NCBI GenBank assembly: GCA_023653785.1
Contig: JAMKCH010072049.1
Location: 1 to 64,000 of the forward strand
DNA length: 64,000 nt
Direction: 5' to 3'
Origin: Ophioderma brevispina
Taxonomy: Eukaryota; Echinodermata; Ophiuroidea; Amphilepidida; Ophiodermatidae
A program made the translations under genes and the position numbers. A model generated the notes under the pieces. It was not told the origin of the DNA. It did no database searches and saw only the letters and a program-made list of their open reading frames with translations. Each line of letters begins with the position of its first letter. Within the stretch, counting starts at the first letter, position 1. Shown here piece by piece: positions 39,780 to 62,995 of the stretch.

Positions 39780-41455
39780 AGTTGACTAAACCAACTCCGG
39801 TGTATTTCCACGGTCTGTTTGACCTAAGGGAGCTTCATTTAAACAATAACAAACTGGAGCAGTTGAGAAGGAATATGTAATAGTTTGTTCATCGTAGGGC
39901 ACGTTTACTTCAGAACCTCGTTTCCAAGTTAGACGTTGGTACATTTAAGATTTGGGTAACTTTTAGCCTTGATCGTTGCCAACAACAAGTTGGTTTCATT
40001 GCCAGAGTATTTTCTTTGGGCCTGGCAAGTTTAAATGATTATATTTGGATGGAAATAAATGTAGTTTATTGAATTCAAGCGTCTTTCATGGTTTAGGGTG
40101 GCTAAGTATCTTGATCTGGAAAACAATAGTTAATGGAATTACCAGTGGAATGTTTTAGCGATTATCTGGTCTATTTTTGCTTACACTTGACAAAACGATC
40201 TAGTATCTATGCCATAAGGTCGGTTTGAGGATTAAAAATATTAATGAATTATATCTAGTCATAACCAGTTTACATATATGATTCTGGGTTGTTTTTACAA
40301 TTATCTGGTCGATCGTGGCTTACACTTGACAACAATGAGCTGAGTACCTTGCCAGAAGATTGTTTGATGTGTCAAAATCTCATTGCAGCTGACCTTAAGT
40401 ACATCACTTGACAACATTGAATGCCGGTATTTTTTGTACAATTTGACAAATTAACTCATGCTTTTTATTCTCGTAATAATTACTTACAGTGGTGTCGTTG
40501 GGGTTGTTTCAGGAAGTAAAAATTTACATACACTGTTTTTTATGGAAACAATTGCCATCGCTGTGAATGTTGAGTCTTTCAAGGTTTGAACAGGTTATTC
40601 CTTGGAATTCAAAACAACAGGCTGAAAACATGCCGGTGGGATTATTTTGGGGATTAGAATTCTTAGTGAATTATATCTTGGTCATACCAGTTAAATATAT
40701 TGGATTCTAGATTGTTTACGGGTTGTCTGGTCTATCGTTGCTTACACTTACCATCATGAACTGAAGTACAACCCGAATCTCTGTTGAGGGATTAGGTAAC
40801 TCCCTGGAACCTAACATATCTTTAATTATAATCATTTGACAACTTTGAATGCCGGCTTGTTTTGACATATGAACCAAATGAGCTCTATACACATAGATCT
40901 TGGCAATAATAGTTGGTAGCGGATATCATTGAATTGTTAAGCCGTACAACCGTACACTGTTTGTGAAAGGTTGTATACCCTTGTCTTGAAAGCAATGAGC
41001 TGAAGACTCTGCCAGCGGGATTGTTTGCGGGTTTGTGAAAATCTTCATGAATTATATCTTTTGATAATCATTTAGGACACATTGGATGCTACTTTGTTTC
41101 ACGAATTGTCAAAACTAGCCGTGCTTGCTATTAACATCAATTTCCTTACGTCCTTTACAGGTTGATCTGTTTTGGTGTTTAGATAATCTACATACACTGT
41201 CTATGGCTGAAAATCAATTAGCTACATTGAATGTTAATACCTTTAATGGCTGACAGTTATACATCCTTAGACTTGAACGCAACAAGCTGACTACACTGCC
41301 GGTAGAATTGTTTTTGGGCTTAGAAAATCTTCATGAACTACATCTTCATGGTAATCAGTTAGCTATATTAGATGCTGGTTGTTTCACGGATTGTCTAAGC
41401 TAGCTGTACTTGATATTGGCATCAATTTCTTTGCTGCTTTAAATGATCAACATTT
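39780..41455 (+). pseudogene. Eroded 5' part of the LRR ectodomain
   Basis: LRR consensus fragments appear in all three forward frames, interrupted by stops and indels. At 39,775 there is a readable GNQLTKPTPVYFHGLFDLRE followed by LHLNNNKLEQLRR. Further echoes occur near 40,100, 40,350, 40,620, 40,980 and 41,280 (GLENLHELHLHGNQLAILDA). The repeat rhythm of about 72 bp continues into the intact array. It has decayed much more than the 3' part, which suggests either old inactivation or heavy local consensus error. No start codon or signal peptide could be located. Confidence 0.7.
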
Positions 41456-43419
41456 TTGGGTTTAGAAAATCTACATACACTTATAATGTTGGGAAATCAA
41501 TTACCTGCATTGGATATTGGTATATTTCATGGCCTCAACAAGTTAGTTACCCTTGATCTTGAAAACATCATGCTGACTAAACTGCCAGTAGGATTGTTTT
41601 CGGATTTAGAAAATCTTAATGAACTATATCTTAGTTATAATCAGTTAGTTACATTAAATGTTGGTTTGTTTTAAAAACGGATTGCCTAGGCTTACTAAAC
41701 TTCATATTGCCAACAATTCATTGACAGCTTTACAAGGTAAATTATTTTTGGGTTTAGACAATCTACATGAACTATATCTTTATAATAATCAGTTACATAC
41801 ATTGGATACTGATATCTTTCATGGCCTGATTAAGTTAGTTATCCTTGTACTTGAAAATAACATGCTGACAACCCTACCAATAGGATTATTTTGGGGTTTA
41901 GACAATCTACATAAACTATATCTTAATGATAATCAGTTACATACATGGATACTGATTATCTTTCATGGCCTGATTAAGTTATTTAGCCTTTCACTTGAAA
42001 CCAACATGCTGACAACACTACCAATAGGATTATTTTGGGGTTTAGACAATCTACATGAACTTTATCTTAATGGTAATCAGTTACATACATTGGATACTGA
42101 TATCTTTCATGGCCTGATTAAGTTAGTTATCCTTGAACTTGAAACCAACATGCTGACAACACTACCAATAGGATTATTTTGGGGTTTAGACAATCTACAT
42201 GAACTATATCTTAATGGTAATCAGTTACATACATTGGATACTGATATCTTTCATGACCTGATTAAGTTAGTTATCCTTGCACTCGAAACCAACATGCTGA
42301 CAACACTGCCAGCAGGATTATTTTGGGGTTTAGACAATCTACATGTACTATCTCTTAATGGTAATGAATTAGATACATTAAATGTTAGTTTGTTTTACGG
42401 ATTGTCTAAGTTAACACTACTTTATATTAACAACAATTCATTAACGGCTGTACATGTTCAATTATTTTCGGGTTTAGGAAATCTACATAGACTATTTATG
42501 TGTGGAAATAAATTGGCTCTATTAAATATTGGTATTTTCGACAATTTAAGAAGCCTAACTATACTTCATCTTTGTAATAATAACTTGAAAGAATTACCTG
42601 GTACACTGTTTCGGAAATTAAGAAAATCTAAACCAAGTAGATCTTAGTACAAATCAATTGGTAACATTGAATGCGGACTTGTTTAATGGCTTGTCTAGGC
42701 TGACTTTGCTTAGTCTGGGGTACAATTTCTTGATTTCATTGCCAGTAAAATTGTTTCGGGATTTACACAATCTTAATCAACTGCACTTGGAGGGAAACCG
42801 ATATGTTACATTGAACGTTAGGATGTTCCATGTATTGAGCAGGCTAACTCACCTAAATCTTAATCAAAACGAATTAAATACATTGCCAATTGAGTTATTT
42901 AGATCATTGCGAAATCTTAAAATGCTGTCCATTGCGTACAACCAACTGAGCATGCTGCACTCGGATATGTTTCATGGTTGGAAGAAATTACGATTTTGCT
43001 TACTGAATGGCAATAAATTGACCATATTGCCAGGTGTTTTATTTCATGGTTTAAGCAATTTGAAAGTTATAGACCTAGGCCACAACCAAATACGACGGAT
43101 AGCCTCTGATACATTTCGTGGATTGATAAGTTTAGAAATAGTTATATTATTGCACAATGAAATAACATGGCTGGGATTTGCTCTCTTTAATGAAACTCTC
43201 AAACTGTCTGTGATAGATCTATCTCACAACAAGCTAAACAATATTCCTTCTGTGGCAAATTTGACTTTTTTAAACCAACTTACAATAGACCACAATACAC
43301 TGATAGAAATAACATCCGATTCTTTTCTGGGTCTGCCAAGAAACGTAAAGTTGCATGCAAGTCAACATGAAATATGTGAGTGTTATGCACCTTCTGGTAT
43401 AAAACTGCAGTGCGTCTAA
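41456..43419 (+). pseudogene. LRR ectodomain of an LRR-containing GPCR
   Basis: Three consecutive forward frames join into one array of 24-residue LRRs: 41,456-41,674, 41,658-42,647 and 42,658-43,419. The repeat consensus is LxxLxLxxNxLxxLxxxxFxGL. The first break is a 4-base A-rich insertion at about 41,672 (compare TTTTACGGATTG at 42,390). The second is one extra A at about 42,625; reading past it restores NLNQVDLSTNQL. The last LRRs lead to a cysteine-bearing cap (HEICECYAPSG) at 43,366-43,400, as expected just before the hinge of relaxin-receptor/GRL101-like proteins. There are no introns, although vertebrate relatives usually encode each LRR in its own exon. An array of this length resembles type C LGR-like receptors more than LGR4-6 or the glycoprotein hormone receptors. 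It is placed in the family by the 7TM part. Confidence 0.85.
41753..42400 (+). repeat. 144-bp tandem units inside the LRR array
   Basis: GACAATCTACATG/A recurs at 41,757, 41,901, 42,045, 42,189 and 42,333, a period of exactly 144 bp (48 codons, two LRRs). Successive units are almost identical in DNA (GTAATCAGTTACATACATTG, then GATATCTTTCATGGCCTGAT), unlike the diverged LRRs on either side. This indicates a recent tandem amplification or ongoing gene conversion within the ectodomain. Confidence 0.9.
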
Positions 43420-48699: not shown

Positions 48700-49210
48700 A
48701 GAATGTGGGCCTGACATTTCGATCCTAGCAGGATCTTCATCAAAGGCAAACTGACAAGACAACAGATATGACAAACCATATATACAGACATAGAACAAAA
48801 GACAGGAACCTAGCAAAAGAAAACAAAGGGGGAGCTGCTGCCTCATACGCAAGAAGAAGTGGGGCATGGAAAAGTGGAGGACGGATGAGTGGTGGGCAAA
48901 GGGACTTGGAGAGCATGCTGAAAATAGAACAATAAAGTTAATGAACAAGCTACGGGATGTGTGATAATGACCAGAAAATCAGTGGGGCATGGACAGGGTG
49001 TAGCAGAAAGAAGACAATAGGATGATGAGTAGCTATACGACGTCGTGTTACCAATACGACGCAAGGGAGGAAGACTGGGATGAAATGTAACGACAAGTGG
49101 AGTTTGGGTGTAATACACTGGTATGTCAATAGCTGTTATAAGGATTAGAAAAAGTAATATTTGTCTAGGTTCCGACCGCGCTATAGCCCCATAATGGTTC
49201 AAGGTCATCC
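48700..49210 (-). pseudogene. Penelope-like element, downstream part
   Basis: On the minus strand a frame contains PLVVTFHPSLPPLRRI, the signature (R.P.V.TYHP.LP.L..IL) found between the RT core and the GIY-YIG endonuclease of Penelope-like elements. A conserved-looking hairpin motif lies further downstream at 48,713-48,744. A fragment of Penelope-type RT lies on the same strand at 55,025-55,410, on the far side of the large inverted repeat. This suggests one element split by later insertions. The rest of the endonuclease is not readable. A MITE interrupts the region at 49,136. Confidence 0.55.
48713..48744 (-). ncRNA. Possible hammerhead-like core of a Penelope-like element
   Basis: On the minus strand the order is TTTGATGAA, a perfect 5-bp stem GATCC/GGATC with loop TGCTA, then GAAATGTC. 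Hammerhead ribozymes have CUGAUGA, stem II, GAAA, and Penelope-like elements carry minimal hammerheads in their flanks. Here the first C is T and one extra A precedes the stem, so activity is doubtful. The GIY-YIG and RT remnants nearby make the context suitable. This is an inference from the motif, not a fold calculation. Confidence 0.3.
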
Positions 49211-49497
49211 TGGGGTAAAAATTTGCCCATGTTCCAAAAATGTATTATTTTACAGTGTGTGACATTTGGTTGGCTAATTATATAGCAAAATGTAGAAAGG
49301 GTCTACATGATCTACGGGGTCACCAAAACTTTCCCTGGATGTCGCAATAGTGATATCACCAAATCAGTTAAAATGCATTTTCTGTTTCAGTATGACACAA
49401 GGAATAATTTGGCACCACTTTCAACAACATCGGAGCATATACCGCTTTAACTGAAGGTTGGAACCAAGGCAATATATAGTTTTTCTAATCCTTATAA
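49136..49497. mobile_element. MITE with TTATAAGGATTAG termini
   Basis: TTATAAGGATTAGAAAAA at the left end and TTTTTCTAATCCTTATAA at the right end are exact inverted repeats of 18 bp. Similarity continues to about 45 bp (left ..GGTTCCGACC, right GGTTGGAACC..). The element is about 362 bp and non-coding. The target duplication is ambiguous because the end itself is palindromic (TTATAA). The superfamily is not assigned. Confidence 0.75.
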
Positions 49498-49869
49498 GGA
49501 GACGAACGCGTTAGTGTACATTAAAACTCAATTTGACTCGATTTTAAATATTTCCCTGTACTAACATTTCCCCCTTGAAGAAGGGGAATCATGCAGTCCG
49601 GAAATTTTGCATCCCATCATTTTCTGACAGTTTAGGCCCTATTGAAATCCAAACAGCAACAAAATAAATTTTAGCATGAGGAATATACACCAAACCACAC
49701 CATTTCTCTGCAAAAAGCTGTAGTCCTGGGTTGTGAGTAGTAGTCCAGCACTTGCTTAGAACCCCGCTTACAATTCATCCGCCAGAAATTCTGAGACTTG
49801 ATTTGAGTTGTTGGACCATTTACCTTTAAGAATCACACATGTGCTTTTTCGAAACCGGCTGCGAATTCC

Positions 49870-50365
49870 GAAAATCCAAGATGGGCGCCGGTAGTCATTT
49901 CAAAAATATAAATTTTGATTTTGATACCTAAAAGTATGTGTAATACCTCGTTTTAGGGGTTTTGGGTGCTGGGAATTCATTTCTGACATCGTTTTTAGCA
50001 TTAGAGGACCATGTTACATGGTATGGATTTGGAATTCCAAGATGGCCGCCGGCAGTCATATGAAAAGTACACATTTTGAATGACTTAACCTAGTATTATG
50101 TTTAATACATCGTTTAAGGGGTTTTGGTGTTCTGGGAATTCATTTCTGACATCGTTTTTATCATTAGAGGTCCGTGTTACATGGTATGGATTTGGAATTC
50201 CAAGATGGCTGCCGGCAGTCTTACGAAAAGTACACATTTTGAATGGCATATCCTAGTATTATGTAATACGTCGTTTAATGAGGTTGTGGGTGTCGTCAAT
50301 TCATTTTTGACACCATTGACATAATTGGAGGTTCAGATTACTCAAAGGGGTAAAAATCCAAGATA
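49870..50365 (+). repeat. Tandem units of about 160 bp in the left arm
   Basis: TCCAAGATGGGCGCC, TCCAAGATGGCCGCC, TCCAAGATGGCTGCC and TCCAAGATAGCTGTC occur at about 49,876, 50,036, 50,198 and 50,348, a period of about 160 bp. Each is preceded by blocks such as GGGAATTCATTTCTGACATC and GTTACATGGTATGGATTTGG. The right arm carries three such units inverted at about 54,595-54,905. Confidence 0.85.
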
Positions 50366-50459
50366 GCTGTCAGTTGACCTAGTGATTTCATATACACTGA
50401 ACAACTCATAAAAGTGGAAAATGTGGTAGGCCTACCTGTTTATTTGTTCTCACAGTTGG

Positions 50460-51677
50460 GCTCAACAACCTTCTTATGGCAGAAGATCACACACACCTGA
50501 TCAGTTACTCTAGTCTCTACAAGAACAGCGCTTCGAGTTACACTTTCCACTACAGCCGCACAGGGTCACACGTTTGGCGGGAATTGGCAATGAATGGGGT
50601 CCAGCTGTCTGGCATCGGCTAACAAGGTCAAGGCATTTCGAATCACGTAGAATGCCCTCCTCAAGTGTTCCCGGATGACGCTTGACGTGGGTGGTAGTTC
50701 TTCTAGCCCCAATGCTGAATGCAAGTGTATGTCAAGTCTGAGCTGGTCAAATGAAGTTGCAGTGGGCTTGCTTCTCACACCGGCCCATACATTGACTAAG
50801 TGTTGTTCAGTCTGATCTAGGTCGGCTTCAGAGAGCACAGAAGACTCTGCAAAGCTTGAGAGAAATCTTACAGGTCTGCATGCAAGTGATGCAAGTTTTG
50901 TTCCCACCTTACTGAGTGCATCGTACCCAGTCGTAACATGCACCTTAATAATGAGTACTCGGCATAATTCATCTCCTAGCTTGTGAAGTGGAATCAAACG
51001 TCGCTTCTCTCCTGTCCCGAACTGAACCCAAAGCTCGTGTAAGCCACACTCTTTGAACAAACCAATTTAGTGTAGGAGAAGGATAATAGTGTCTGTGTCA
51101 TAGACACCACAACAACTCTCTGACAGCCCCTTCTAAATGCCCAATACACATGAGATATTACGCGACAGTCAGCCTCCTGCCAGTTGCTGAGGAGTGACAG
51201 GTCATCCGCAGATGATTCAGTCAGCTTCAGAGTTGGAGGTACCAGCTCTTAATTGACCACAATTCCACTCAGAACCACGTCTTTCAGATCTCTTTCCCCG
51301 ACGTCCCGTGCTAGCAACTGTAGGTTCTGTTTGTTGACACTAGATGTCCAGAACTTGTCCAGTCCATGATGGCTAATTCAACAGCGCTTGTCTCCCCAGC
51401 TCTATGGATCCGCTCACCTTCTTTGATGCTCAACTCAGTAGCTGTCAAATACTATGTGGATCATTTCCAGTGATGGACAAACTCGATAGGTACTCTGAAA
51501 AAACTTCTTGAATGACTCCACCAAAGTTTGTAAATATAGACCGAAGATTGGGGAATTGACGTACTTTTGACATGAAGTCAAGCTCAACGTGTATTGTCTG
51601 GGGGTTGTTCTGATTAAATTGGTAATCGGCTTGGGTAAGATTGGTTTCCAGCTGAGCAACCAATTGTGCTTTGTCAT
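50460..51677 (-). pseudogene. TSO1-like CXC-domain gene, left copy (broken)
   Basis: It reads from about 51,677 downward. N-terminal pieces in two frames lie in the unrepeated centre (HVELDFMSKVRQFPNLRSIF, VIQEVFSEYLSS). Next comes the stretch shared with the right arm, including SSADDLSLLSNWQEEADCRV, and then the 164-codon frame 50,566-51,060 with HVTTGYDALSKVGTKLASLA (the family's H..TGCD..SK.G.K block with Cys changed to Tyr) and LGLEELPPTSSVIREHLRRA. A 49-bp deletion at about 50,590 shifts frame. Past it, 50,516-50,560 encodes CGCSGKCNSKRCSCR, the first half of a TSO1/tesmin-like CXC zinc-binding domain, followed by a stop. Proteins of this kind are multicopy in marine invertebrate genomes and behave like mobile-element genes. 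Their biochemical role is not established, and I assign none. Confidence 0.75.
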
Positions 51678-51741
51678 GCTTTATCGTCCTATCCCCAGTG
51701 GGCTATACTGCAGAAGGTCATGTGCATATAGCTCTTCCGGT

Positions 51742-52860
51742 GAGCTGGTACCTCCAACTCTGAAGCTGACTGAATCATCTGCGGATGACCTGTCACTCCT
51801 CAGCAACTGGCAGGAGGAGGCTGACTGTCGCGTAATATCTCATGTGTATTGGGCAGTTAGAAAGGCTGTCAGAGAGTTGTTGTGGTGTCTAATGACACAG
51901 ACACCCTTATCCTTCTCCTACACTATATTGGTTTGTTCAAAGAGTGTGGTTTACACGAGCTTTGGGTTCAGTTCGGGACAGGAGAGAAGCGACGTATGAT
52001 TCCACTTCATATACTGCACCTCAAGCTAGGAGATTAATTATGCCGAGTACTCATTAAGGCGCATGTTACGACTGGGGACTATGCACTCAGTTAGGTAGGA
52101 ACAAAACTTGCAGCACTTGCATGCAGACCTGCAGGCCCGTACGCAGGGGGGGAGGGGCCCAAAAGGTCCACTTTTTGCTGATTTTTTTTAATACAAATGT
52201 TAAAAATTTAGAGAAATTTTGACAAGAAAGTCCACTTTTTGTTCATATGTTCAAAAAGTCCCCAAAAGGACGTTTTTCGGGGGGTTAGGTCCACTTTTAG
52301 CAAAAAGGTCCACTTTTTCGAAGTCCCGCACCCCCCCAAAAAAAATCCTGCGTACGGCCCTGTAGACCTGTAAGATTTCTCTCAAGCTTTGCAGAGTCTT
52401 CTGTGCTCTCTGAAGTTGACCTAGATCAGGTTGAACAATACATGTATGTATGTATGTGCCGGTGCGAGAAGCAAGCCCACTGCAACTTCATTTGATCAGC
52501 TCAGACTTGACATACACTTGCATTCAGCATTGGGGCTAGAAGAACTACCACCCACGTCAAGCGTCATCCGGGAACACTTGAGGAGGGCATTCTACGTGGT
52601 TCGGATTGCCTTGACCTTGTTTGCCGATGCCAGTCAGCTGGACCCCATTCATTACGGGTGGATCAACCAAGACGGCATCCTCTTGCCCCGTAAGTCTCTG
52701 AAGCCAATTCCCGCCAAACTTGTGACCCTATATGCGGCTGTAGTGGAAAGTATAACTCAAAGCGCTGTTTTTGTAGAGCAGCTGATCAGGTGTGTGTGAT
52801 CTTCTGCCATAAGAAGGTTGTTGAGCCCATCTGTGAGAACAAGTAAACAGGTAGGCCTAT
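51742..52860 (+). pseudogene. TSO1-like CXC-domain gene, right copy (broken)
   Basis: It repeats the 3' part of the left copy in opposite orientation, reading outward. The order is SSADDLSLLSNWQEEADCRV (51,770 on), then a region disrupted by indels and by the 231-bp hAT-like MITE, then the frame 52,431-52,799 with ARSKPTATSFDQLRLDIHLH, GLEELPPTSSVIREHLRRA and YGWINQDGILLPRKSLKPIP. The last block is missing from the left copy. A 2-bp insertion before 52,733 shifts frame. In the shifted frame 52,733-52,828 encodes the CXC domain (CGCSGKYNSKRCFCR, then CVIFCHKK), with one zinc-ligand Cys changed to Tyr. The N-terminal portion is absent. Between them the two copies retain the C-terminal region, but neither can be translated. 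Confidence 0.75.
52132..52362. mobile_element. hAT-like MITE, GTACGCAGG-terminus family
   Basis: Termini CAGGCCCGTACGCAGG and CCTGCGTACGGCCCTG are 16-bp inverted repeats with one mismatch. The element is 231 bp and is flanked by an 8-bp target duplication, CAGACCTG at 52,124-52,131 and TAGACCTG at 52,363-52,370. The inverted left arm at 50,871-50,878 has a single copy of the site (CAGGTCTG), which is the empty site. An 8-bp duplication and CAGGG-type ends define a hAT non-autonomous element. The interior holds AAAAAGTCCACTTTTTG-type repeats. Confidence 0.92.
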
Positions 52861-53419
52861 CACATTTTCCACTTTATGAGTTGTTCAGTGTATATGACAC
52901 AACCTACCGCCGCCTGCGTGACTCCTAGCTGAGACTAATAAAAATGTTGTCGTTTATTAATTTCGCCTTGCCAAACTACCCATAATCCCTCACGAGTTTG
53001 ATCATCGCAATGCAAAAATGCGAAATTTGCTGCAACTTTTTTTTACAAAAATTCTAGAGGGTGTCCTCTAAAGATTGTCACCATTTGATGTAGAAATATG
53101 TTCTATAGAGATGACAGTTTTGTTTTGAGGTGGACACCCCTAGGTTTTAATGGCATTTAAATTTTGCTTGCATCATTTTAGTCACGCTTTCAATGTGTAA
53201 GCATGTGGTGCATATTGGCGCTGCCGATTTCAAGTAACCCTAGGCCTGTTGCCAAGTTGAATCGTTGTTACACATTGTAAACATGTACACTGTGACATGG
53301 TGTATCGTTCAGTTTTGTGTTGTAACACCATTCCTACTAATTACGCCACGCGACGTACCGTATACAAGGGGCGGGATCACATAATGAAATGGTATGGGTG
53401 CCGGGTATGTGTGTAAGGC

Positions 53420-53790
53420 TGGCGCTTCCAAACCCGGGGGCATTCGGTGACAGAGGACTCAAACAAATAGGAGTATTTGGGTGAGAGACAGCCAAAATGT
53501 CCTAAAATATGGGTTTTTCGGGTGACAAATTTGTATGCAAATTTTCCAAAACATGTGGTCTTTATAGAAAATTTCGAAAAATTCACCAAAAATAGGGATC
53601 TTTGGGTGAAAATTTTCAAAATATTCCCCCCAAAAAGGGTTTTAGGTGACAGTGGTAAAACTCTCCAAACAATGTGGTCAGTTTTGGTGACATTTTCAAA
53701 ATATATGGGGTCTTTGGGTGACAGCGGTGCTGAAAATTGGGGTCTTAACAGCTTTACATACCCGTCACCTCCAAGATGGGAGTGCCCCCC
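53420..53790 (+). repeat. Degenerate minisatellite, TTTGGGTGACA-type
   Basis: Variants of GGGTCTTTGGGTGACA followed by ATTTTCAAAATAT recur about every 45-65 bp: 53,445, 53,476, 53,519, 53,600, 53,643, 53,688 and 53,713. The 80- and 119-codon frames over this region are translations of the array. Confidence 0.7.
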
Positions 53791-54256
53791 GTATATTAGT
53801 TATTATGCAGCAATATGGTGCATCCCATGCCCCTAGTGTCAATCAATTTTCTTGTCCCTATGGTCTTAAAGTGTGCAACTTGTCAAAATAATAACCTCCA
53901 CCAAATTAAAATTTATTCGGATGTCGGCAAGGGGAACCTCCATGAGCTTAAAGTTTTGTACACGAAATCAATAGGATGTTTGTTGTTGTTTTTTTGACAA
54001 AACACAAAAATGTGATGATTGTCATTAATGTGATTTGGTCAGCAATTCTCCGTGAGGTACTTCAAAAGGCAAAAAGTACCAATCAAAGACGTCTTCATTG
54101 GCAGGCAATACACAATAGCTAAACATGACCCATATACTAAAGGGAGTCTAGCTAGAACAGGCGACCAACATGCCAAAATTGTCGTTAATCAGCCTGACTA
54201 ATTCTGTTTCACTGACCAGTCCTGTTTCAGTGACCGCTCCCGTTTACTCAGCTAGC

Positions 54257-54284
54257 GGGAGACCGCGCGAAGCGCGGGCCTCCC
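54257..54284. repeat. GC-rich hairpin
   Basis: GGGAG-A-CCGCGC, loop GAA, GCGCGG-GC-CTCCC. This forms a stem of 11 pairs in very AT-rich surroundings, inside the 1.67-kb insertion. It is probably a structural element of that insertion. Confidence 0.7.
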
Positions 54285-54594
54285 ACAAGTTAACATAGCA
54301 GGCAACTCTTTTGTCCTCTTTCAATTCATGCCAGGTGGCATTTCTTTTCAGTAGTAGTTAACTCTTTGTAAGTAAAGTATTGACATGTTATGTAACCACG
54401 GATTCAGGTCAATATATTTATAAAAGAGACTTTAAACTCAGGAACTGGCAACCATACATTACATTGTTATACGTTCTCGACATACAGTGCAAAATACCAT
54501 CGTACTGCAAATGTTACGTGTTTTGTGTCATGTGACTGAGTCTAGGCATAATGAGTCACGCAGCCCCCATATGACATCACTATGTCAACTGAGA

Positions 54595-54905
54595 GCCATC
54601 TTGGATTTTTACCCCTTTGAGTAATCAAAAATGGATTGCCGACACCCACAACCTCATTAAACGATGTATTACATAAAATACTAGGACATGCCATTCAAAA
54701 TGTGTACTTTTCGTAAGAGTGCCGGTGACCATCTTGGAATTCCAAATTCATACCATGTAACATGGACCTATAATGATGAAACCGATGTCAGAAATGAATT
54801 CCCAGCACCCAAAACCCCTAAAACTATGTATTACACATACTTTTAGGTATCAAAATCGAAATTTATATTTTTAAAATGGCTACCGGCGGCCATCTTGGAA
54901 TTCGC
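54595..54905 (-). repeat. Tandem units of about 160 bp in the right arm
   Basis: GCCATCTTGGA, ACCATCTTGGAATTCC and GGCCATCTTGGAATTCG occur at about 54,596, 54,729 and 54,889, inverse to the left-arm units. They share blocks such as GATGTCAGAAATGAATTCCC and CCATGTAACATGGACC. There are three units here against four on the left. Confidence 0.85.
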
Positions 54906-55024
54906 AGCCGGTTTCGAAAACGCACCTGCGTGATTCTTAAAGGTAAATGGTCCAACAACTCAAATCAAGTTTCAGAATCTCTGGCGGATGAATTGTAAGC
55001 GGGGTTCTAAGCAGGTCCTGGACT

Positions 55025-55410
55025 ATAGGCGCTCTGGATGGCTTGCTGAACTCTGCTGGAGCTGTGCCCTCTGGCCACTAGGTGTTTCTTCAAATTCTGT
55101 GAATGGCACCGGTACAGAAATCTAGAATCATTAGAACATAATGCGCCGAAGGCGAAGAGCCTGACTGTAAGCAATGCCAGTCTTACAGTGGCGAGGGTGG
55201 CAACTGGAGGAATGGAGATACTGTCTGTAGGCTAATAATCCGTGAAGAGGATGCCTTCCGCTTTCTTAATGGTGACATCAAGGAAATGTACCTATTGGTG
55301 AGAATATTCAGAAGTGAATTCATTGGTTCTGTGGAAGGAATTGATGTGGTTAGTAAATGTGATGAGGCCCTCCTCATCACTGGTCTAGATGAAAATTGTA
55401 AATGCTGTCA
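55025..55410 (-). pseudogene. Penelope-like reverse transcriptase fragment
   Basis: Minus strand, reading from 55,410 down across frameshifts: TSDEEGLITFTNHINSFHRT, NEFTSEYSHQ, VHFLDVTIKKAEG, PTDS, HCKTGIAYSQALRLRRI, FLYRCHSQNLKKHLVARGHS and VQQAIQSA. This order (HINSFH..I.FT.E......FLDV......PTDS....HP.H....I.YSQALRLRRI) is the post-motif-C part of Penelope-type RTs. Internal stops show that it is dead. It ends exactly where the large inverted repeat begins. Confidence 0.8.
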
Positions 55411-57439: not shown

Positions 57440-57835
57440 GTCTACGCATTTATCCGAAGGTTCGTTTATCCGAAGTTTCATTATTCCGAAGGTTAGTTTA
57501 TCCGAAAACTCGTTTTCCGAGGTTCGTTATCCTGAAGAGTTTCATTATCGAGGATTCATTACTCCGAAGGTGCGTTAATCCGAAGGTTCGTTTATCCGAA
57601 AGGAAAATAAGGTTCGTTTATCGGAAAAAGAAAAGTGTTCGATAATGGGTTAGTTTATCCGAAAAAGAAATAACGTTCGTTTATCCGAAAAGAAAGTGTT
57701 CGTAATCCGAAGGTTCGTTTATTCCGAAAAAAAATAAGGTTCGTTTACCAAAAATGGAATAGGTTTGTGTAATCCGAAGGTCGTTTATCCGAAAAAAAAA
57801 TGATTGTTTATCCGAAAATGAAAGCGTTGAAATTA
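57440..57835 (+). repeat. TTCGTTTATCCGAA tandem array, left
   Basis: About 20 variants of GGTTCGTTTATCCGAA, spaced from about 16 to 30 bp, some with an added AAAAAGAAATAA spacer. The same repeat occurs inverted at about 62,545-62,995, so the two arrays form the arms of a foldback structure. Unit spacing is irregular and the units lack the constant repeat and unique spacers of a CRISPR array. Confidence 0.9.
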
Positions 57836-60150: not shown

Positions 60151-60154
60151 TGAG

Positions 60155-60275
60155 TTTAGGGTTAGGTTTAGGGTAGGATTAGGGTTAGGGTTTAGGGGTT
60201 AGGCGTTTAGGTTAGGGTTTATGGTTGGGTTAGAGTTAATTAACACCCTAAACTTAAACCATAACCCTAACCGTA
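60155..60275 (+). repeat. Inverted interstitial telomere-like repeat
   Basis: Degenerate TTAGGG/TTTAGGG units from about 60,155 to 60,232 are followed, after GTTAGAGTTAATTAACACCC, by CCCTAA-type units to about 60,275. The orientation therefore flips at about 60,240. TTAGGG is the telomere repeat of most metazoans. Here it is short and internal. Confidence 0.8.
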
Positions 60276-60505
60276 AAGTCATGGAGCGCGTAAGATCACT
60301 CGCTTCGGGGGGGCCCTAACCCTAAGTCACTGGGGCAAGTAGGATCACTTCGGCTTCGCCGAACCTAAATACTGTAGCGAGTAGATCCTCGGCTTTCCGC
60401 CCTAACCCTAAGTCATGGGGGCGAGTAGATCACTGGGATTTCGCCCTAACCCTAAATCCTGGGGCAGTAGATCACTGGGCTTCGCTTAACCATAAATCAC
60501 TGGGG
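60262..60505 (+). repeat. CCCTAAGTCATGGGGCGAG-type tandem array
   Basis: About five units of roughly 45-60 bp: CCCTAACC(G/C)TAA, GTCA(C)TGGGGC(A)AGTAG, ATCACT, CGGCTTCGCC. The array starts within the CCCTAA half of the telomere-like block, so it probably grew from it. Confidence 0.75.
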
Positions 60506-60529
60506 CGACGAGCTGTTTTAATTTAGCGC

Positions 60530-61320
60530 TTATTCCGTAAAAACAGCCCGTCACCCAAATTTATAGTTAGCTTCAGCGACTTTACAGGCCTGCGGCGCAA
60601 GCTAGTTGACACTTTACCCCATAATTTCCCTCATTTTCAAGCCCTGCCTTTAGGGGCTATCGGTCTGCGACGCCTAGCGCGTTATATAAATAATATTAGA
60701 TAGTAAATTTATAGGCCTCGGCGCCAAACAACAGTTGGCTAAGCGTTTTTTATAGGCCTGCGGCGCAAAACAGTTGGCTAAGCGCTCTTTATAGGCCTGC
60801 GGCGCCAAGCCTAGTTGGCTAAGCGATCTTTATAGGCCTTCGGCGCAAAAACAGTTTAGCTAAGCGACCTTTATAGGCCTGCGGCGCAACCTTGTTAAAC
60901 TTTTACCCCATAATTTCCCTCCTTCTTCCCCACCTGCCCTCTTCAGGGGCTATCGGTCTGCGACGCATGCGAGGAGGTTAATAAATAAAATATTAGAGTA
61001 GAAATTTATAGGCCTGCGGCCCAAAACAGTTGGCTAAGAGTTCTGTTAGAGGCTGCGGCGCAAAAACAGTTGGCTAACTGATATGTATAGGCCTGCCGCG
61101 CAAGCTAGTTGGCTAAGCGATTTTTTATGGGCCTGCGGCGCAAAACAGTTAGCAAGCGACTTGATAGGCCTGCGGCGCAACCTTGTTAAAAATTTCACCC
61201 CATTAATTTCCCTCCTTCTTCAAGCCCTTGCCTCTTAGGGGGGGGCTATCGGTCTGCGACGGTAGCGAGTTATATAAAAAAAAATATTAGATTAGTAAAT
61301 GTATGGGCACTGCGGAGCCA
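60530..61320 (+). repeat. GGCCTGCGGCGC array with higher-order structure
   Basis: A unit of about 36-40 bp, TATAGGCCTGCGGCGCAA plus AACAGTTGGCTAAGCG, repeats more than a dozen times. It is embedded in a larger period of about 290 bp marked by ACCCCATAATTTCCCTCC (60,613; 60,904; 61,196), followed each time by GGGGCTATCGGTCTGCGACG. This is two-level satellite organisation, much GC-richer than its surroundings. Confidence 0.85.
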
Positions 61321-62519
61321 AGAAAGTTATCTAATCAAATGAGTCCCAGCTTCCAGTCAAAACCCTGTTTTTTAACGTGTACCTTTCCCAAACTCTACCT
61401 AAGTAAACTTGAAACTTGGTTCGGGTATATATCCCCAAACTTATTCCAACCAATGCGGCCCCCACGTATTGATTGGACTGCCTTCTTTCAATACTGGTCA
61501 GGTTAACAGTAATTACATTACACCACTAAAATTTCTATATTCAACTAAAAAAGGCGAAACATTATGACCGCAAAGCAAAATATGACAAATAACACCAACT
61601 AGGTTCCAAACTCTACATTAGAGTTGTGTGGCCCGAAATCGGGAATGGGCCGGGACTCGGGATTGCACCTGAGCCGAGTTGGCTGTAGAATGGGGGGCCG
61701 AAATTAAATAAGGGTCGAATTGACTGAAATAGGCTATTGAGCTTGTGATGTGTATAAAACCAACGGGATATATTCACGTGTATTCAATACGGAATAAGCC
61801 CATATCTTGTTGTAACATTATCAAATGGTACAATTATTATTTTCCTACTAAAAGGCTTATTCCCACGAATTTCCCCATCCCATCCTATTGTTACGCTGCA
61901 TATATTTGGACACTTCTCCAAACTTCATTAACCTTCGGTTATCATCAGCAGTTCAACGTGTTTATCTATCTTATTCCATGTCTTCGCTGTTTTCCTGCCC
62001 AGTGGGGAGCAATTCCTTAATTTGACCACCGTATTGGGCTCTACAGTAGTCCTTGGGCGCTTCTACTCGAATAAACGGGACCTCACACTTCACAACTACA
62101 ATCCAATGCACGAAAAATTGGAACGTTCAAAGGTTAAAGAGGGGTCACGTTTCGCTACCGTGGATTAGGACTATATTGAGCACGCCGCAACATAATTGGT
62201 GAAATTGGAAGGTTCCATTTTTACCTAGAGACCTTCCAAGGAATTATATTGGCAGAGTAGACAGAAAAGAAACGGCGGCCCCGCCGCTATCGCGCCATGT
62301 AATCGGGTTCATTCCTTACTGTTTTAAGGTTCGAAAATCGACAGGGTAAGGATGCTGCTTACATCCAACCACCCTTGCATCAAATTATCTTTTGGCTTCA
62401 AAATTCTTAATCTTTCTTAATTTAAATTCTTTGGAAAACGAACTGGGTTTTAAAGAATTTGTTCTGGTTGGCAGAAATATGACTTTCAAAAACATTTTTG
62501 GATATTAACTAACACAATT
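61321..62519. other. No gene recognised
   Basis: The interior of the foldback structure between the satellite array and the right-hand TTCGGAT array. No motif was recognised. Confidence 0.4.
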
Positions 62520-62544
62520 TCATTTTCGGCATTCACGAAAACAG

Positions 62545-62995
62545 TATTTATTTCGGATTAATGAACTTTTTTCATTTGGATTCAACAAACCTTATTTTCA
62601 TTGCGGATCAACGAAACATTATTTCATTTTCGGATCAACGAACTCATTTCATTTTCGGAATAACGAACCTCATTTCATTTTCGGATCAATGAACCTTATT
62701 TCATTTTCGGATCAACGAACCTTATTTCATTTTCGGATCAACAAACCTTATTTCATTTTCGGATCACACGTAAACTTCGGAAGAAAAAAAACGAACGTCG
62801 GAGAGGAAAAACGCAACTTCGGATAAACGACACATTCGGAATAACAAAACTTCGGAAAATAAAAGAAAAAATGTTCGGATTAACGAACCTTCGGAATAAC
62901 GCCCACGTAGGTATAGGAAATTTCCGTGGTCGGATTAACGACCTTCGGAAATAACGAACCTTCGGAAGAACGAACGTCGGAATAATGAACAGCCA
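62545..62995 (-). repeat. TTCGGATAAACGAA tandem array, right
   Basis: TTTCATTTTCGGATCAACGA and, nearer the outer end, CTTCGGATTAACGAACC variants repeat about every 17-33 bp, inverted relative to the 57.44-57.84-kb array. As on the left, the outer part has short spacing and the inner part has a longer AT-rich spacer, so the two arms mirror each other. Confidence 0.9.

Follow-up and report, generated by a model that had tools for sequence, protein, structure and literature searches.

What kind of structure is the 5.3-kb inverted repeat, with a broken gene reading outward in each arm, that lies on contig JAMKCH010072049.1 of the brittle star Ophioderma brevispina (assembly GCA_023653785.1)? The stretch analysed here comprises positions 1 to 64,000 of this contig (64,000 nucleotides, hereafter the window), and an earlier note made from its sequence alone had suggested either a little-described class of mobile element with long terminal inverted repeats (TIRs), carrying a TSO1-like CXC gene, or an inverted duplication of one element end. 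The element probably belongs to a foldback (palindromic) subfamily of AcademX-like DNA transposons, and "little-described class" overstates its novelty. The window holds a dead copy of it, in whose history probably one end was copied over the other, a palindromic master spread and the centre was lost. This report describes the structure, the copies in the host genome, the encoded protein and the explanations that compete for its origin.

Structure of the element in the window

The arms of the inverted repeat occupy positions 49,741-51,248 and 51,742-55,025 (Table 1), and the arm alignment and the reading frames bear out the inverted repeat with two outward, broken genes, although its right end is at 55,025, not at 55,024 as the earlier note had it. 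In a global alignment the arms are 94.6% identical over 1,298 aligned columns (5.4% divergence), and the right arm is without about one 163-bp unit relative to the left arm; the length of the element is 3,369 bp once two right-arm insertions are removed. The centre is indeed single-copy, with N-terminal coding of the left copy only, and the junction between the arms at 51,741/51,742 is abrupt. The units of about 160 bp that had been put forward as possible termini are present in both arms near the ends, but they start about 130 bp inward of them. Because the arms are 5.4% apart and have unlike insertions, the structure is not a duplicated contig end. Since the gene remnants are truncated and broken, the copy is non-autonomous, and it is dead.

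The two nested insertions presumably entered the right arm later than the formation of the element, and the 1.68-kb insertion appears hAT-like, judged by its 8-bp duplication length. The two ends of this insertion (52,900-54,576) have CTGCGTGACTC in common.

Termini and target duplications

A search of the host assembly (2.51 Gb, 65,844 contigs) with the left arm gave at least 62 matches, 40 of the 569 candidates being scored. The sequence TAGTCCAGG stands at the edge in 26 of 35 ends of the window copy and related copies, and variants of it in nine, including the window's own left end. The sequences beyond the listed ends are unlike one another, except in L045 and L046, which have a flank in common and are therefore one insertion. 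Among the 11 copies with both ends, a 3-bp flank match is present in eight (the window copy, L032, L033, L035, L037, L038, L043 and C17427), compared with four of 110 mispaired flank combinations; the count becomes 6/9 after dropping L037 and L038, whose boundaries were set after a gap. L034 is omitted since its right end lies beyond the contig, and two copies of the L031 type stand outside the count, namely L031, in which the flanks do not match, and L048, whose left end is unclear. Both outer ends are true transposon termini with a 3-bp duplication. Moreover, no outer end of another copy extends past the ends of the window element, and the other copies have, as would be expected of a mobile element under the earlier note, a common outer end, target duplications and, recurrently, the gene in both arms.

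Recurrence of the mirrored plan

A query consisting of the gene portion of the left arm gave at least 65 matches on 36 contigs (40 of 42 candidates scored). Both gene orientations, reading outward, occur on 12 of these contigs, that is, C59429 (the window), C54622, C32877, C59751, C1147, C50182, C28618, C25743, C9455, C1506, C17427 and C42087. Nine of the 12 were confirmed on the contig sequence itself, and the other three (C1506, C17427 and C42087) by match coordinates, together with junction reads in C1506 and C17427 and end reads in C17427. At a thirteenth locus, C21382 (L038), the second arm goes about 95 bp past the common 577-bp end and is without gene coding. The mirrored plan is present at 13 loci, and at 12 of them the gene is in both arms. 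The divergence between the arms of one copy ranges from about 5 to 26% (BLAST). In addition, the second end is too short to assign in three contigs (C36, together with C64716 and C9569, which contain one and the same insertion), three contigs end in the arm or no more than 80 bp from it (C12868, C8522 and C27773), and one (C57399) is cut by a reverse-transcriptase-like stretch.

Encoded protein and its relatives

In both arms the C-terminal portion of one and the same gene is present and points outward. The TSO1-like CXC gene of the earlier note is thus outward and broken as described, but what it encodes is the terminal, nuclease part of a larger protein, in which CXC is only a short tail. 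The nuclease identity is shown by homology and by the predicted fold of relatives, which have a nuclease fold in the model and conserved acidic residues; in a viral structure library the top matches were mostly XRN/FEN-like nucleases. A sequence profile gave nothing meaningful against PDB, scans of prokaryote and viral contigs gave no relatives, and in the scanned proteins the Pfam CXC model had no match with an E of 1 or lower. The cysteine pattern is seen in eight of the 13 rows of alignment A1; in the remaining five the sequence is truncated or frameshifted at that place. This C-terminal pattern, CxC...CxC...C...CH, is like that of TSO1/tesmin CXC proteins, whereas the main body here consists of the nuclease and a possible transposase.

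The possible transposase is the N-terminal part, a model of which matches Hermes, its other matches being unrelated proteins; the lack of a clearer match does not speak for a new fold. The part of L034 that reaches residue ~101 of P0001 matches only itself and C9455 (two of two candidates). The N-terminal relative P0035, used as a query, gave at least 82 matches (89 of 160 candidates scored), of which the strongest are 45-46% identical and come from other families, and ten loci have open frames of more than 1,000 amino acids (aa). Among the matches listed, pieces with at least 60% identity to P0035 are found at the L034 locus (50 residues, 60%) and in C6447 (48 residues, 69%). Both protein searches match ten contigs, and in seven of them (C16502, C4813, C27424, C5206, C1289, C19687 and C23264) the halves are in order, on one strand and within about 2 kb; in C6447 they share a strand at a distance of 4.4 kb, in C9455 about 29 kb lie between the matches, and C59751 holds the palindrome L034. 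The copies of the palindromic subfamily are without the transposase half, so the transposase would need an outside source. The occurrence of single-orientation genes in other families of this genome makes the palindromic plan look derived.

Open frames of about 1,200-1,550 aa, belonging to other transposase-nuclease families, were seen on C16502, C36344, C14899, C33095, C20300, C4582 and C7478, and to judge from these frames the contigs may contain intact autonomous elements.

Junctions and relationships among the arms

Read on one common arm scale, the inner arm ends are 2002 and 1508 in the window, 1192 and 1784 in L032, 1039 and 1735 in L033, beyond 2002 and 968 in L035, 1791 and 1392 in L037, 1303 and 672 in L038, 1788 and 1710 in L043, and 943 (with a further N-terminal piece) and beyond 2002 in L034. 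Unequal arms are joined in L051 as well, L036 is nearly spacer-free and palindromic across its centre, and the junction of C42087 was taken from match coordinates alone. Altogether there are 12 junction kinds among the 13 loci, and one kind occurs at two loci, C1506 and C17427, in mirrored orientation. The stretches beside C1506 and C17427 are unlike each other, and the termini of C1506 were not found in the four stretches looked at; the common junction may have come about by segmental duplication. Three spacer-free junctions (the window, L032 and L033) show by eye a microhomology of 1-2 bp, a trace of the kind that end joining leaves.

The centre of L036 (element positions 1,780-2,080) is a near-perfect palindrome with almost no spacer and almost identical sides, although its arms overall are about 20% apart, which suggests local conversion or hairpin closure.

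In eight of the nine copies compared, the distance between the two arms is at least as large as that to the nearest arms in the remaining copies; the exception is L034, whose arms are closer to each other (391 columns). The arm trees are star-like and poorly resolved, and arms group within a copy only in L038 (92/90) and, weakly, in L035 (69/67). In clean segments, arm divergence is similar within most copies. A single old palindrome whose left and right arms had diverged was also considered; no such split is seen in the arm trees, and these relationships speak against it without separating an identical-armed master from repeated formation. The rejection is weak because the trees are poorly resolved, the left/right labels are arbitrary and some of the distances are enlarged by misaligned tandem units.

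Classification and comparison with known systems

The nuclease of AcademX is presumably of the XPG type, and the element here encodes an XPG/FEN-type nuclease. Academ has been named as a superfamily in one paper (PMC4455052), and another (PMC10045372) gives duplications of 3 or 4 bp for AcademX and 9 or 10 bp for AcademH, tied to the encoded nuclease and helicase. The 3-bp duplication of the present copies falls in the former range. An XPG-type nuclease together with a 3-bp duplication points to the known AcademX lineage; consequently, the description as a little-described class was overstated, although the long-TIR mobile element itself is supported by the target duplications, the recurrent long inverted repeats and the gene in both arms. 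The element resembles AcademX in the FEN/XPG-type nuclease within the element protein, the 3-bp duplication and the inverted terminal repeats, and differs in the outward-facing inverted gene pair within a palindrome and in having copies without the transposase half. In the literature searched, with most subscription papers and Repbase outside reach, no account was found of an AcademX element that is palindromic and has its gene in each arm.

Furthermore, the element has the long inverted arms, internal tandem repeats and flanking target duplications of a foldback element. The foldback elements FB of Drosophila and TU of the sea urchin have long, internally repetitive inverted arms, whereas the arms here carry gene sequence. 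Galileo of Drosophila is another parallel; its inverted repeats, according to PMC3573991, grow when one terminal repeat templates the repair of the other and internal sequence is recruited, giving TIR1-F1-F1-TIR2. Both have long inverted repeats with tandem repeats inside, recruited internal sequence and copies without a functional transposase; Galileo belongs to the P superfamily and its duplicated inner piece is, by the same account, 441 bp of an F1 segment, while here it includes much of the nuclease gene. A conventional host gene, also considered, is ruled out by the multiple copies, the common termini and the target duplications.

Origin of the palindrome

We infer that the palindrome originated by end copying, that a master of palindromic form spread and that its copies lost their centres by end joining. 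A single-gene AcademX element would have had one end copied over the other by way of its long terminal repeats, and a palindrome with two genes would have resulted, by a route like that proposed for Galileo. This palindrome would have spread, moved by the transposase of complete relatives. Since long palindromes are unstable and breaks remain after excision, each copy would then have lost its centre, with the promoters, the transposase domain and differing amounts of the two genes, and the broken ends would have been rejoined with 1-2 bp of microhomology. A further conjecture, which we hold to be rather improbable, is that the master was a near-perfect palindrome of two complete divergent transposase-nuclease genes with a shared central promoter, that the element spreads in palindromic form, and that its own flap-type nuclease would cut the extruded hairpin, centre loss thus being built into the cycle.

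Several observations weigh against this account. No complete palindrome with two full genes was found, 16 of the 36 contigs have the gene on one strand only, and some of these may be single-gene copies; one of them, C7145, showed no second arm in the part looked at. Therefore, it cannot be claimed that all copies are palindromic. The single-orientation genes that the earlier note had connected with a conventional locus are otherwise seen only outside this subfamily, in more distant families of the same genome, while the both-arm plan recurs on 12 contigs. Further points against the account are that L036, L040 and L051 (3/11 copies) have no 3-bp duplication, and that the arms of L035 and L036 are unequal in divergence. 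The assignment to AcademX is based on the encoded nuclease, on the length of the duplication and on one published sentence rather than on comparison with a reference element.

The most serious competitor, possible but on the unlikely side, is recurrent new formation from a single-gene master, in which a broken right end invades the left terminal repeat during gap repair, copies inward and joins the left half, each palindrome being formed separately. The 12 junction kinds, the microhomology at three junctions, the single-orientation genes in other families and the precedent of TIR extension in Galileo agree with it, and the ends of about 577 bp could mediate the invasion. It predicts, however, that copies in which a gene end is paired with some other end are numerous, and among the copies with both ends resolved (a set outside which the 16 one-strand contigs lie) none pairs the arm with a different subterminal sequence, the lone candidate, L045/L046, having been rejected (see below); moreover, one junction is common to two loci, which means that palindromes can probably spread in that form. 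Two independent head-to-head insertions of the same family, or a local inverted duplication, would account for the unequal arms of L035 and L036 and for the flanks of L036 without a match, but are very unlikely given the matching outer duplications in 8/11 copies, the same plan at 13 loci and spacer-free junctions inside the gene. Likewise, the inverted duplication of one element end proposed in the earlier note fits the appearance of the locus, but the structure is repeated and mobile and no accident of this place. An assembly artefact, that is, a false inverted duplication, is scarcely credible: C12868, C8522 and C27773 do end in or near an arm, an effect that palindromes cause, but the arms are 5.4% apart here and up to about 26% elsewhere, and the nested insertions are unlike.

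Related elements and surroundings

L045/L046 was considered as an ordinary element, having the gene at one end and a helicase (Pif1 2B domain) at the other, but this reading was rejected because the terminal 851 bp of the presumed helicase end are dispersed, with at least 45 matches on other contigs (40 of 77 candidates scored). Its middle is therefore more plausibly a different element that came to lie between the left arm and the right terminal repeat by insertion or recombination. A Pif1-helicase and endonuclease-like stretch at 2,215-5,150 of L046, with a very abundant piece of about 190 bp at its end, is possibly a Helitron relative. A second element set, which has the 577-bp end in common, comprises L031 (1,553-8,033) and L048 (4,140-8,382) and consists of inverted arms of about 1.4 to 1.6 kb of other sequence and single-copy fragments, which by eye look like another nuclease/CXC-type gene.

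Just outside the left terminus in the window (49,136-49,497) lies a small element with inverted ends of about 42 bp (TTATAAGGATTAGAAAAA...), and a similar sequence occurs close by the C1506 copy (L060), on the right. Tandem units of 144 bp (multiples at 288 bp) at 41,263-42,495 read like leucine-rich repeats, and dense minisatellites are present at 57,449-57,828, 60,154-61,321 and 62,517-62,990, with units of about 16, 40-80 and 26 bp; some window minisatellites have TTCGG/CCGAA cores.

Table 1. Parts of the palindromic element in the window and their positions.
Feature	Position	Strand	Remark
Left 3-bp target duplication, TAG	49738..49740		
Left arm, terminus to junction	49741..51741	+	
Terminal region, ~577 bp, common to the second element set with another interior (L031 type)	49741..50317	+	
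Tandem array of the left arm, 163-bp unit, 2.7 copies	49875..50312	+	
Left gene remnant, FEN/XPG-like nuclease and CXC-like tail, broken frames, outward	50443..51741	-	nuclease fold from the model of a relative
Single-copy centre, 493 bp, left arm only; extra N-terminal coding of the left gene	51249..51741	-	
Arm-arm junction; ~2 bp (GA) common to both joined sequences	51741..51742		by eye
Right arm, inverted copy, terminus 55,025	51742..55025	-	
Right gene remnant, broken frames, outward, split by the 239-bp insertion	51742..52843	+	
Nested small element, 239 bp, ends CAGGCCCGTACGCAGG/CCTGCGTACGGCCCTG, 8-bp flanking repeat with 7/8 bases matching	52132..52370		repeat by eye
Nested insertion, 1,677 bp, between 8-bp repeats ATATGACA	52900..54576		repeat by eye
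Two tandem units, 161 bp apart, right end	54695..54903	-	
Right 3-bp target duplication, TAG	55026..55028		

Significance

At about a dozen loci of one genome, the inverted repeats of a DNA transposon have taken in part of the transposon's own gene, and the target duplications show that the resulting structures are mobile. Inverted-repeat expansion of the Galileo kind is thereby extended to an AcademX-like element. The range of centre deletions is a record of how cells resolve long palindromes. There is also a warning for annotation: what is read as a "CXC-domain gene" can be what is left of a transposase-nuclease gene.

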